64,000 nucleotides of DNA. It comes from an uncultured Tateyamaria sp. Its GTDB lineage: Bacteria; Pseudomonadota; Alphaproteobacteria; Rhodobacterales; Rhodobacteraceae. Position 1 is the first letter of the stretch, and the number at the start of each line of letters is the position of its first letter. Below are positions 23,478-27,463 of the stretch, piece by piece. A program made the position numbers and the translations under genes. The notes beneath the pieces were generated by a model. The model saw only the letters and a program-made list of their open reading frames with translations, did not search any database and was not told the DNA's origin. Location: NCBI RefSeq assembly GCF_947503415.1, contig NZ_CANNDS010000001.1, forward strand, positions 1,088,501 to 1,152,500. The letters are read 5' to 3'.

Positions 23478-24383
23478 TCAAGCGCGAATGGCAAGGCGGG
23501 CCGCAAGCCAACTGACCAGCATGAAACCGAAGTCCACCGGCAGCCACGCGGCCATCGCCGCCTCGTCCCCAATGCCGAAGGGCAAAACATACAAGGCAAG
23601 ACCGGACATCTCGTCCGGGGTGGCCGTCAGAACCATGGCCGAGATGTTGTTGGAAAAGTGCACGGCCATTGCAGGACCAAGGGTGCCCGAGCGCGCCGTC
23701 AGGTCCGCCATCAATATCCCGAACAGCGTCGCCCAAAGCGCAATCGTGACCGCATTGCTGCCCGCGCTCTCGGGGAGGTAATGGCCAAATCCAAACAGCA
23801 TGGCTGGCGCAACCATCCAGATGATTGGTGACTTGAACCGCGCCGCCAGCTGCTGCTGCAAGTAGCCGCGAAACAGAACCTCTTCCGCGCCGATCTGCAC
23901 AAAAACAGCGACAATTGCGATGGGCAGCAAAATCAGCCACCGGCCTACATTCATATTCTGCGACAGCGGTTCGCCTGCGTCATAAGGGGGCAACAGCCAC
24001 AACGCAGCGGTCAACAGAACCATCATGAACAGCACCGCCGTGAATTGGCGCACAGCAAGGCTCACGGGCCCAATCAGTGTCGCGGGGCGACGGTTGTGCA
24101 CCACAATCACGACCAGTGCGGCAGAGACCGCCAAAAGACCCAACTGGAACAAGAGCAAAAGCATGCCACCCGCCGTCTGGCCAGTCTGGGCGTCGCGCAG
24201 AACGGCATTGGCTGTCTGCGGCTCCAACAAGCCGAGAATGGTGCCGAACACCAGCTGGCTGAGAACAAGGAAGAACCCCGCGACCAGAATGACGCCAAGG
24301 ATCAACCGCCACAGCTGCGCGCGATCCCGCGCGGGATCGATGAAGCGCGCATGCGGGCGATAATCAAAGCTGAGAACACCCAT
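23478..24383 (-). CDS. CPBP-family intramembrane metalloprotease
   Basis: The 301-residue protein has about eight membrane segments and the CPBP (Abi/CAAX-like) catalytic motif EEVLFRGYL in the middle (about 165-175), then FGFGHYL and a later HFSNNI histidine; the paired Glu, Arg and two His are the expected active-site set. CPBP proteases in bacteria often mature or degrade membrane-bound peptides. Its ATG shares a base with the stop of the ABC-like gene (TGATG), so it is translationally coupled to that unusual protein and may act on it or with it. Confidence 0.9.
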   Translation of the reverse strand: MGVLSFDYRPHARFIDPARDRAQLWRLILGVILVAGFFLVLSQLVFGTILGLLEPQTANAVLRDAQTGQTAGGMLLLLFQLGLLAVSAALVVIVVHNRRPATLIGPVSLAVRQFTAVLFMMVLLTAALWLLPPYDAGEPLSQNMNVGRWLILLPIAIVAVFVQIGAEEVLFRGYLQQQLAARFKSPIIWMVAPAMLFGFGHYLPESAGSNAVTIALWATLFGILMADLTARSGTLGPAMAVHFSNNISAMVLTATPDEMSGLALYVLPFGIGDEAAMAAWLPVDFGFMLVSWLAARLAIRA

Positions 24384-27300
24384 CAGTCGTCAATCGGCGG
24401 GGGCGGCGGGCCCTCGTCCTGCGGAATTTGCACATTGGCCTGGCGCAACAACTCGGCCGCCCCCGTCAAATGGCTTGCAACGGTGTGCAGCAAGCTCATC
24501 AAGACATCTGCATCCTCTTCCAGCACAGCACGGAACTCCGCCGCACCGATGCGCAGGAATGTCACTTCGGACAGGGCGGTCAGGTGCAGCTGGCGCGGCT
24601 CGTCCAGGATGATCGCAAGGTCGCCGATCAAACGACCCGGTTCGACCACGGACACCTGTCTGTCTTGACCATCATCGGAATCGTAGCTGAGCACGGCGCT
24701 GCCCTTGACGCACAGATACGCAGCATCCGCTTTCTCCTCCATCGAAAAGATGCGCTGCCCCTCTTCGGCAGTGTACCACTGCGCGGCAAAGGCAAGCAGG
24801 CGCTGATTTCGACTGTCGATCCCCGAAAACAACTCAGCCCGAGAGATGACCCGCAACTTGCGGCTCAGGTCATCGGCCTCCTCATCATCTTCATTGGCTT
24901 GCACACCGTCGATGCGCCCATCCTTGATCTCGATAAAAAGGTCATAGGCATCCGGGTTGTTGAAATGTTCCTCAAGGAAAATCAGTGTGGCGTCAGGCAA
25001 CAGCTTGCGCAGGGCCGTCCGCGTCTTGCGTCGCTGATCGCCGCCATGGCTTGCCAACGCCCGATCAAGCACCAGAATGTCCGGGCGCTTGATACCGGCC
25101 CGGGAAAACGCCGCGCGTTCGTGGAAGATCGTTGGCAAGTTGGTACCGCCAAGCCCCGTGCGGATATCAAAGATCGTTTCAGCCACCTGTCGCCGCAGAT
25201 TGTTGTCGCTGATCAGTTCGGCAACCAGATCTTCGATCAACTCCCCCTTCGCACCCGCAACCATGGAGATTCGACCATAAAGCGCGTTCTCCAGCAAAGT
25301 GAGGCGTGGCAGATATGTTTCCGGCTCGATCGGGATAAAGATGCCCTTGGTCTGCTCGCGCAGCGCCGCCCCGTTGGTCTTGCGGATTTGCACGATCTCG
25401 TTCTTGAAGCTTTCCGGGAATGCGGGGCCAATCTGTTCTGCCGTAAAGGCGAAGGGCACGGTCAACAGCAACGCAAATTCATCATCGGTCAAGGCCACAT
25501 CGCCACGTTCCCGACGGCGGGCAGAGATATCGACAAGCTGCTCATACATCTCTTCTTCGATGTTGAGCGCCGTAAACAACGGGTGGCTTGTTCCGTCGCG
25601 GCCAAAGGTCTGGTGCAGCGTGTCAATCAGGGTTTGCGAGATGGCGATACCCTGTTCGGCTAGCCCATGTTCAAAGACCAGATTGATGAAGCGATGATCG
25701 CGCGCCAGCCCCTGTTGCGAGATGTCGCGGGACGGCGCGGCAAACAACAGGTTGCCGCCCAAAGGCACGGCTGGGTTAAATTCGTCGGGATCAAAGCGGT
25801 ACACTTCGTCCAGCATCCCCTTGTCGCGCAGACACTCCTCGACCTTGGGGCGCAGATCAACAACGGCTTTGGCCAATTCCGGATGTTTTTGCGGGTCAAT
25901 GCGGCTGTTGAGCATGCGGCGGAACATGAATTCGTCGATGCCCATAGCTTCGACCAGCTCGAACCACCACGCGCGCACTTCATCTTCAGTACCCAGACCG
26001 GCAAGGCCCGGATCAACCCATTCCGTATCCACCCGGTCGACGCTGTTGCCAGACCGCAGCGCTTCGGTGGTGTAGCGATCCTTGCCGCGCTGATTCCACG
26101 GCACGGTGTTCGGACGGGTCATCAGCGGCATCAACAGGTTGCTGCCCAGCGTGCCGTCAAACAGGTACGGGCGCGACTGGGCATAGCCGATGCGGGCCGA
26201 CACAATCTCTTGGTGCAGTTCCGACAGGTCGTGCCCGGCCATCGTGATCGTGCCACGCGTCGGCAACACCTCACGTGTCAACAGCTCGGCCAATGCGGTC
26301 CGCTCAGATTGGTTCTTGGCCTGAATGGCAACACGCGCGCCCTTGGGAATGGTCAGGTCGATCCGCTCAAGAACAGGCGTATTCTCCGCGTTGCGGATCG
26401 TCACGTTGTCCATGACGATGTCGCCCTGCAGGTGGGGAATAACCTCCGGCTCGCCCTCGAACAGCGCCTCGTCAATCATGTCGCGCGGGGCAAAGCGGTC
26501 CGTCACGATCTCCCACCGCAAGGACATGTCCTGCGTCTGGTTGTAGTAGGTCAGCAGCTCTTTCCACGGGCTCGACAGGTCCTTGTAGGCCGCAATCGCC
26601 GCCACCAGCGCGCCCACGGTGATGTCGCCACGAATGGCCAGATACCCACCCACGGAATAAAAGAAAAACGGCGTCAGCTGCGTGATGAAGTTGTTGAGAA
26701 ACTTCATAAAGAACTTCTGCTGGTAGATCTTGAACCGCAGCTCGAAAATCCGCCCCAACCGATCCGTAAACTGCGCCTGCCGGTACCGCAGACCGCCATT
26801 GGTGCGCAGATCAGAGATGCCTGCCGCGCTTTCGCCAATCTCGGCCGAGAATGCGCGCACCTGCTTGATCCGGTCCTTGTTCAGGAGGTTGATCCGCCGT
26901 TGCAGCATCGGAATGACGTAGGCCTGCAGAGGGATCAGCGCGATCCCGGCCAAGCCAAACCACACCGATTGCAGGAACAGAAACACCACGATGATCAGCA
27001 TCTGACCGGCCTGGAACACAGGCTGTGCCACCATATCACCCATCAGGCCACCCATCGGCTCCGCCTCGGATGTGACCATGCTGACCAACTCACCCTGACT
27101 GGTCGAACGGAAATAACTGCGCGGAAACCGCAACATGCGGGTGATCAGCTGGAACCGAAAGCGGCGCAACAACCGCTCTGCCGTCACGCCTTTCATGGTG
27201 TTCAGGCGCATCTTCAGCAAACCATGCGCCAGAACGGCGGCCAGATAGCCAAAACACAAGGCAAGAAGGAACTGGATTTGGGTCAGGTCAAACCCGAAAA

Positions 27301-27463
27301 AGTTGATCAATCCACCCGACGCACCAATGGCATCGTTGATGATGCGCTTGGGCAATTCGAGCGTCGCATAGAGAAACGGGAACGTCACAATCGTGAGCCC
27401 CAACAGCATCAACTGATCACGCTTGGAGTGCTTCCAGATGAAAGCGAAGATGGTGGAATCCAT
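24383..27463 (-). CDS. ABC-exporter-like fusion with degenerate ATPase, large insert and C-terminal cyclic-nucleotide-binding domain
   Basis: The 1026-residue protein has an ABC type-1 membrane domain (about 15-320), a nucleotide-binding domain (about 340-855) and a CAP_ED domain (about 880-1000). The ATPase motifs are decayed: the Walker A position reads QAKNQSERT (381-389), with all three Gly replaced and Lys replaced by R388; the LSGGQ position reads LPTIF (776-780); after Walker B ILVLD (796-800) the catalytic Glu is R801. The Q-loop Q429 and perhaps H833 remain. About 270 residues are inserted between Q-loop and signature (about 445-720). The cassette GDLAIILDEPRQLHLTA (947-963) keeps the Arg of a cNMP pocket. 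ATG 27463 has AGGACGAG before it. It may be a regulated channel, scaffold or sensor rather than a pump. Confidence 0.86.
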   Translation of the reverse strand: MDSTIFAFIWKHSKRDQLMLLGLTIVTFPFLYATLELPKRIINDAIGASGGLINFFGFDLTQIQFLLALCFGYLAAVLAHGLLKMRLNTMKGVTAERLLRRFRFQLITRMLRFPRSYFRSTSQGELVSMVTSEAEPMGGLMGDMVAQPVFQAGQMLIIVVFLFLQSVWFGLAGIALIPLQAYVIPMLQRRINLLNKDRIKQVRAFSAEIGESAAGISDLRTNGGLRYRQAQFTDRLGRIFELRFKIYQQKFFMKFLNNFITQLTPFFFYSVGGYLAIRGDITVGALVAAIAAYKDLSSPWKELLTYYNQTQDMSLRWEIVTDRFAPRDMIDEALFEGEPEVIPHLQGDIVMDNVTIRNAENTPVLERIDLTIPKGARVAIQAKNQSERTALAELLTREVLPTRGTITMAGHDLSELHQEIVSARIGYAQSRPYLFDGTLGSNLLMPLMTRPNTVPWNQRGKDRYTTEALRSGNSVDRVDTEWVDPGLAGLGTEDEVRAWWFELVEAMGIDEFMFRRMLNSRIDPQKHPELAKAVVDLRPKVEECLRDKGMLDEVYRFDPDEFNPAVPLGGNLLFAAPSRDISQQGLARDHRFINLVFEHGLAEQGIAISQTLIDTLHQTFGRDGTSHPLFTALNIEEEMYEQLVDISARRRERGDVALTDDEFALLLTVPFAFTAEQIGPAFPESFKNEIVQIRKTNGAALREQTKGIFIPIEPETYLPRLTLLENALYGRISMVAGAKGELIEDLVAELISDNNLRRQVAETIFDIRTGLGGTNLPTIFHERAAFSRAGIKRPDILVLDRALASHGGDQRRKTRTALRKLLPDATLIFLEEHFNNPDAYDLFIEIKDGRIDGVQANEDDEEADDLSRKLRVISRAELFSGIDSRNQRLLAFAAQWYTAEEGQRIFSMEEKADAAYLCVKGSAVLSYDSDDGQDRQVSVVEPGRLIGDLAIILDEPRQLHLTALSEVTFLRIGAAEFRAVLEEDADVLMSLLHTVASHLTGAAELLRQANVQIPQDEGPPPPPIDD

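Follow-up and report, generated by a model that had tools for sequence, protein, structure and literature searches.

A candidate pseudo-ABC exporter with a degenerate nucleotide-binding domain and a cyclic-nucleotide-binding tail in Tateyamaria and other Alphaproteobacteria

The window considered here, a 64,000-nucleotide stretch from an uncultured Tateyamaria sp. (contig NZ_CANNDS010000001.1, positions 1,088,501 to 1,152,500), carries on its minus strand, from 27463 to 24383, a gene of 1026 codons plus stop that is free of internal stop codons, as a first-pass annotation made from the sequence had read it. The encoded protein, P0001, joins the membrane domain of an ATP-binding cassette (ABC) exporter to a nucleotide-binding domain (NBD) interrupted by a long insert and to a C-terminal domain for cyclic nucleotide monophosphates (cNMP) (Table 1). 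The full ABC membrane domain and the CAP_ED domain following the NBD, both named in that annotation, correspond to Pfam matches with ABC_membrane (PF00664, residues 66-290, E 4e-21, 76.3 bits against a cut-off of 28) and cNMP_binding (PF00027, residues 900-984, E 2e-13, 50.7 bits against 27.5), and Pfam ABC_tran covers only residues 365-460 (E 5e-6). Foldseek comparison of a predicted model places the tail in the fold of cyclic-nucleotide-binding proteins. The membrane domain of the full-length AlphaFold2 model is poor (mean predicted local distance difference test score 67, predicted template-modelling score 0.44), so no channel or cavity is deduced from it.

Table 1. Features of the P0001 gene in window coordinates
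Feature	Coordinates	Strand	Basis or remark
Whole gene	24383..27463	-	1026 aa, stop codon included; M1 nearly invariant among relatives
Membrane domain (ABC exporter transmembrane domain), residues 1-330	26474..27463	-	Pfam PF00664 at 66-290; PDB sequence matches over 43-445
NBD N-terminal half, residues 345-445	26129..26431	-	
Degenerate Walker A AKNQSERT, residues 382-389	26297..26320	-	Alignment with canonical exporters
Repeat element 1, residues 425-445 (normal post-Q-loop segment)	26129..26191	-	hhalign probability 80 vs element 3, 71 vs element 2
Insert region, residues 446-765	25169..26128	-	324 residues vs 34 in PCAT1; repeats; predicted mostly helical
Repeat element 2, residues 554-577 (strand, ENLL-type helix, strand)	25733..25804	-	hhalign; DSSP of models
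Repeat element 3, residues 709-732	25268..25339	-	hhalign; DSSP of models
NBD C-terminal half, residues 766-855	24899..25168	-	PCAT1 match 769-851, i-Evalue 0.023 taken alone; whole-NBD fold match
LPTIF at signature position, residues 776-780	25124..25138	-	Alignment
D800 (Walker B Asp retained) and R801 (catalytic Glu lost)	25061..25066	-	Alignment
cNMP-binding domain, residues 876-1000	24464..24838	-	PF00027; Foldseek to cNMP-binding proteins

Alignment with four, later five, canonical exporters from the same genome fixed the positions of the ATPase motifs. At Walker A the two glycines are replaced by A382 and E387 and the lysine by R388, with T389 fitting the Ser/Thr position; LPTIF stands in place of the LSGGQ signature, and R801 in place of the catalytic glutamate behind the retained Walker B aspartate. 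All three losses had been proposed in the first-pass annotation, the Walker A one as QAKNQSERT at 381-389, and hold on alignment. Two further substitutions absent from it, S430 for the Q-loop glutamine and E832 for the H-loop histidine, leave P0001 with two canonical residues among the nine scored.

These losses are conserved among relatives. In a census of 190 members, made up of a first set of 150 and 40 class-wide members, LSGGQ occupies the aligned signature position in none (0/150, 0/40, and 0/190 overall), and GxxxxGK[ST] is present at Walker A in 3/150, 2/40, and 5/190, respectively. Within the first 150, an intact Walker A is confined to the clade of loci L124, L126, and L127. The letters SGGQ occur in two of the 190 (L057 and L058), five residues ahead of a signature that itself reads LPRVF, and L083 bears a further GxxxxGK[ST] in an upstream frame extension, off the Walker A position. 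All nine key residues come together in no row of a 105-row alignment; ten rows have none, 24 one, and 25 two. A relative combining an intact Walker A with LSGGQ at these positions was sought among the 190 and not found, the nearest being L191, the best of the 105 rows with seven of nine residues, in which Walker A, Walker B, glutamate, and histidine are intact, the signature is LSGAQ, and the Q-loop glutamine is missing. On these alignments the family forms a gradient, with the class-wide members nearest to canonical and the window lineage among the more altered. The Walker A Ser/Thr is replaced by Asp or Glu in 31 of the 40 class-wide members; a charge swap at the Mg site, namely an acid after the Walker A lysine together with a Walker B asparagine, was considered, as the Walker B residue is Asn in 32/49 acid members and Asp in 16/18 Ser/Thr members. 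Independent tree pairs gave no significance (median p 0.375), and the swap remains a hint from sequence.

The insert lies between Q-loop and signature, where the first-pass annotation had put it, and is longer than the approximately 270 residues estimated there: query residues 445 and 769 align with residues 585 and 619 of the PCAT1 chain, giving 324 residues against 34, or about 290 extra. In hhalign, segment 538-712 matches segment 695-800 with a probability of 98.1, and together with the three elements of Table 1 this shows that the insert contains repeats of the NBD's own helical segment. A second intact NBD within the insert, a possibility raised at the outset, was looked for by hhalign and in structure models and was not found; the repeats were found instead.

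A scan of named genomes recovered 75 loci of other genomes with 51-92% identity to P0001, and the family frame is open over at least 980 codons in 73 of them, the other two (L065 and L076) being cut by contig ends. Because of these relatives and a second copy in its own genome, the state of the window protein is more than chance. L065 is a 57% relative on a 3.9-kb metagenome contig labelled Granulosicoccus, a gammaproteobacterium; among the members seen it is the sole class exception, and the contig may be misbinned. A search of 398 Pseudomonadota genomes with the window insert gave matches in 30, and one with the insert of L111, a more canonical relative, gave strong matches in 31 of 398, all of them Alphaproteobacteria in both searches; 12 further genomes matched the L111 insert only weakly and in part (<28 bits, frames of 609-716 residues). 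The L111 membrane domain scored at least 225 bits in 95 of 289 alphaproteobacterial genomes, in frames of at least 876 residues except in G743 (402) and G709 (377). Frames of 587-690 residues, the ordinary exporter length, reached at most 64 bits, which leaves a clean gap; besides the earlier loci, the NBD was read in 40 of the 95 genomes. In a tree with five canonical exporters as a small outgroup, the family forms one side of a supported branch. The second copy in the window genome (L002), here called type 2 as opposed to the type 1 of the window, lies on another contig and is 50% identical over residues 3-1001.

In the plasmid records listed, copies go under 'ABC transporter transmembrane domain-containing', 'ABC transporter ATP-binding', or 'ATP-binding cassette domain-containing', one is 'cyclic nucleotide-binding domain-containing', and some are unnamed; ATP-driven transport is thus at most an assumption carried by these names. 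The Sinorhizobium meliloti 1021 copy on pSymB (L144) is split into two overlapping frames, and strain B401 (L148) has one frame of 922 codons. MsbA2 was considered and set aside as a different gene, since the extracts consulted place its operon fragment at 938 kb of pSymB and the family copy lies at 842-844 kb; for the Sinorhizobium copy itself, no phenotype emerges from the available extracts of PMC3687685, PMC5498481, and PMC12239276. No description of the family was found in the open-access PMC literature, judged by title and abstract.

Related membrane domains also stand alone, on frames of about 310-500 residues that are common in the family sample. None of five fetched examples, which included the longest listed frames able to hide an NBD, has one, and two of the five are 40 and 42% identical to the window membrane domain. 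In at least four genomes (G400, G401, G449, and G551) a stand-alone membrane domain occurs without a match to the full-length insert. Since such relatives exist, there are lineages in which this membrane domain can function without an NBD. The window genome itself encodes a stand-alone ABC membrane domain of 322 residues that is kin to the family (L003:1495-2463), adjoining a frame with two importer-type ABC ATPase signatures. Conserved charged or polar residues of the membrane domain, such as E36, N257, N258, D295, E302, and D312, are largely common to two NBD-less kin and not to the canonical exporters, a comparison set of only five.

The phosphate-binding cassette of cNMP domains follows the consensus GE...R(T/A). 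Among 115 fused members, Gly947 is retained in 114 and Arg957 in 113, and position 948 is Asp in 81, the window protein included, and Glu in 33; in 29 separate cNMP proteins encoded at the loci, the glutamate is present in 27 and the arginine in all 29, followed by A in 27 and T in 26. In the first set, 27 of the 34 unfused members have a separate cNMP gene of this kind (~160 residues) that overlaps them or lies no more than 253 bases away, on the same strand in 27/27. Class-wide, 39 of 40 loci have a cNMP domain: it is fused in three, adjacent by script in 33, in a frame running into the family gene in two, and about 560 bases downstream in one, with none found at the remaining locus. For scale, the window genome has 13 cNMP domains per 4.87 Mb. 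This fused or adjacent linkage is the strongest evidence of both parts working together. Two independent gene fusions, suggested by two label changes in a smaller tree, were dropped once 40 more loci had been added, because the 46 fused rows of the enlarged tree form one clade (support 99), for which a single fusion would be the simpler account. A divergent long-branch subgroup (L110, L114, L115, L116, and L139) has no adjacent cNMP gene that could be found.

In eight comparisons with Tateyamaria relatives, the ratio of nonsynonymous to synonymous substitution rates (dN/dS) of the whole gene was 0.041-0.119, and that of each domain, the degenerate NBD included, was below 0.16 wherever computable; these values are rough, as synonymous divergence (0.98-1.71) is near saturation. 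Other genes of the same loci gave 0.041-0.077 (accD), 0.009-0.063 (ilvD), and 0.070-0.189 (CPBP), so that the family gene is constrained about like its neighbours and less than ilvD. The gene is thus under purifying selection, and the values speak against relaxed decay.

Downstream on the same strand lies a gene for a CPBP-type membrane protease (23478-24383), whose ATG overlaps the stop of the family gene by one base. A downstream CPBP gene occurs in 69 of 103 loci, and clusters of CPBP and accD follow in about 70 of 103. As a specific partner the protease was rejected, because CPBP is far commoner among Rhodobacteraceae-level genomes (136/198) than the ABC family (39). Of the 40 class-wide loci, 27 have glycosyltransferase genes upstream in divergent orientation, and such genes precede the family gene in Rhizobium, R. 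etli, and Sulfitobacter plasmid clusters. Class III cyclases occur in the stretches around 6/35 unfused loci and 8/30 loci of the type 2 bin, with 0.6 expected in each case, and occur at 5/40 class-wide loci; the type 2 paralogue of the window genome adjoins a HAMP-cyclase gene. The cyclases near L108, L117, and L174 contain a 2Fe-2S ferredoxin domain, a hint that the signal may be under redox control. In the clade of L124, L126, and L127, an ion-channel gene and a metallo-hydrolase gene lie upstream; the L124 copies were identified by Pfam, and the hydrolase is Apyc1-like. L140, L141, and L145 stand beside an ABC importer gene set with a solute-binding protein. An anti-phage role, in which a cyclase would act with a cNMP effector, was also considered. 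PADLOC matched the relative L126 through the cNMP part. For P0001 itself it gave no Pycsar or other anti-phage effector match at 1e-5, and accD and similar housekeeping genes still adjoin the type 1 loci; on these grounds the role was rejected. Two neighbouring cyclases and one separate cNMP protein that were scanned matched Pycsar models, so a kinship in signalling is possible.

Starting from what was obtained directly, namely motif loss, insert repeats, predicted fold, conservation, and gene linkage, we infer with a probability of about 0.5 that P0001 is a pseudo-ABC exporter, in which the NBD no longer hydrolyses ATP and instead relays a cNMP-type signal to the membrane domain. Briefly, the membrane domain and the NBD fold would have been retained as the NBD stopped running its hydrolysis cycle and grew through repeats of its helical segment. 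A cNMP-binding domain would have joined it, fused in the window clade and, in most relatives beyond that clade, encoded by an adjacent gene of its own. On sensing a cyclic nucleotide or a comparable small molecule, the relay would then determine which conformation the membrane domain adopts. The membrane domain may serve as a conduit, gated or facilitated, or as a membrane subunit with a regulatory role, and its ancestral task would have been in the assembly of surface glycans. The fuller version, in which an ABC-exporter ATPase became a second-messenger relay controlling a cyclic-nucleotide-gated conduit for surface glycan or lipid, with the NBD-less domains as a further step, is put forward more tentatively, as a possibility well short of even odds. 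The first-pass annotation had likewise proposed a cyclic-nucleotide-gated or ligand-gated membrane device or scaffold, which is borne out in part: the motif losses are conserved and the gene is under purifying selection, and a cyclic nucleotide may bind or gate the protein, whose cassette is partly altered.

Several observations weigh against the pseudo-exporter reading. The cassette of the window lineage has GD for GE and RQLHL for RTATV, although the glycine and the key arginine are kept, and an adjacent cNMP gene is missing from 7 of the 34 unfused first-set members. T389 and D800 remain in the window NBD, and nucleotides might still bind weakly with an arginine in place of the Walker A lysine. 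More of the site survives in the class-wide members (Lys in 25/40, Glu in 21/40, and His in 13/40), and ATP binding may be ancestral and partly retained in the less altered members. The window gene is flanked by ilvD, CPBP, and accD rather than by glycosyltransferases. No cyclase was found around the 82 loci of the type 1 bin (type 1 and a few others), a count made after removal of the type 2 locus L002, entered twice, with 2.6 expected for the bin of 83; the cyclase profile was itself built from nine cyclases of these same loci.

Other explanations account for part of these data. The motif losses alone would favour a decaying exporter pseudogene, but the frames open over at least 980 codons in 73 of 75 other loci, dN/dS values of 0.04-0.12, and the keeping of both paralogue clades refute this, in line with the first-pass view that the gene is not a pseudogene, and hardly any weight is left to it. 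The two paralogues might instead pair up as a heterodimeric exporter whose ATP sites are non-canonical yet functional. Both types are supported clades (Shimodaira-Hasegawa approximate likelihood ratio test values of 100 and 99), type 2 of the window genome retains the Walker B aspartate and the glutamate (LDEP), and of the 25 genomes with type 1, 24 also have type 2, as do 6 of the 173 that lack type 1, although this Fisher comparison ignores kinship, and types were assigned by match identity with a tree check in part of the genomes only. According to the extract of PMC7756269, TAP, TM287/288, and CFTR are exporters with one degenerate and one canonical site; P0001 shares their non-canonical NBD motifs, but a canonical site was looked for in the candidate partner L002 and that copy is degenerate as well. 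In both paralogues the Walker A glycines and lysine, the Q-loop glutamine, LSGGQ, and the H-loop histidine are replaced, which rules out a canonical site for the pair. Their genes also lie on different contigs, and such an exporter is improbable.

A secondary transporter driven by an ion gradient, with the NBD as a mere structural appendage, has a precedent in SbmA, described in the extract of PMC13316013 as proton-driven and related to the transmembrane domain alone; like the window protein, it has an ABC-exporter membrane fold without an ATP engine. The stand-alone membrane domains of the same lineage, and the polar residues they have in common with the family and not with the small canonical set, fit this explanation. 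However, P0001 carries both an NBD and a cNMP domain, purifying selection acts on the degenerate NBD as it does on the other domains, and no SbmA family match was found in Pfam at E up to 0.1; the explanation is judged unlikely. Comparably doubtful is a non-transporter, that is, a membrane receptor or scaffold that would assemble or regulate envelope enzymes in the manner of SUR, which regulates a channel. The linkage to glycosyltransferases, the lost engine, and the added sensor domain agree with such a role, but the conserved polar residues of the membrane domain suggest a working surface, and no partner was identified.

Among known systems, PCAT1, Atm1, MsbA, and Sav1866 resemble the window protein in PF00664 family, NBD fold, and domain order, and differ from it in that it has lost the ATPase motifs (Walker A, Q-loop, LSGGQ, catalytic glutamate, and H-loop) and carries an insert and a C-terminal cNMP domain. 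NHLM-type exporters, some of them with a cNMP domain, and cyanobacterial exporters with cNMP domains are likewise ABC exporters, but have this domain at the N terminus and an active NBD. Against the NHLM-type family NCBIfam TIGR03797, P0001 scores 71.7 bits with a cut-off of 709.4. The stand-alone cNMP-binding protein of PDB 5d1i, titled as Brucella abortus, matches the separate cNMP protein of R. etli over 1-123 (E 1e-19) and is the best Foldseek row for the NBD-tail model, the domain being fused in the window protein.

ABC proteins are defined by their ATP engine, which this family loses by degrees while keeping the fold: L191 retains seven of the nine residues, and ten of the 105 rows retain none. 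The occurrence of relatives in many alphaproteobacteria suggests the conversion of an ATP pump into a device run by another signal. If true, the pseudo-exporter reading would show how a primary pump turns into a signal-operated membrane device, with living intermediates and NBD-less relatives, and would indicate that cyclic-nucleotide signalling has an output at the envelope in rhizobia and roseobacters.

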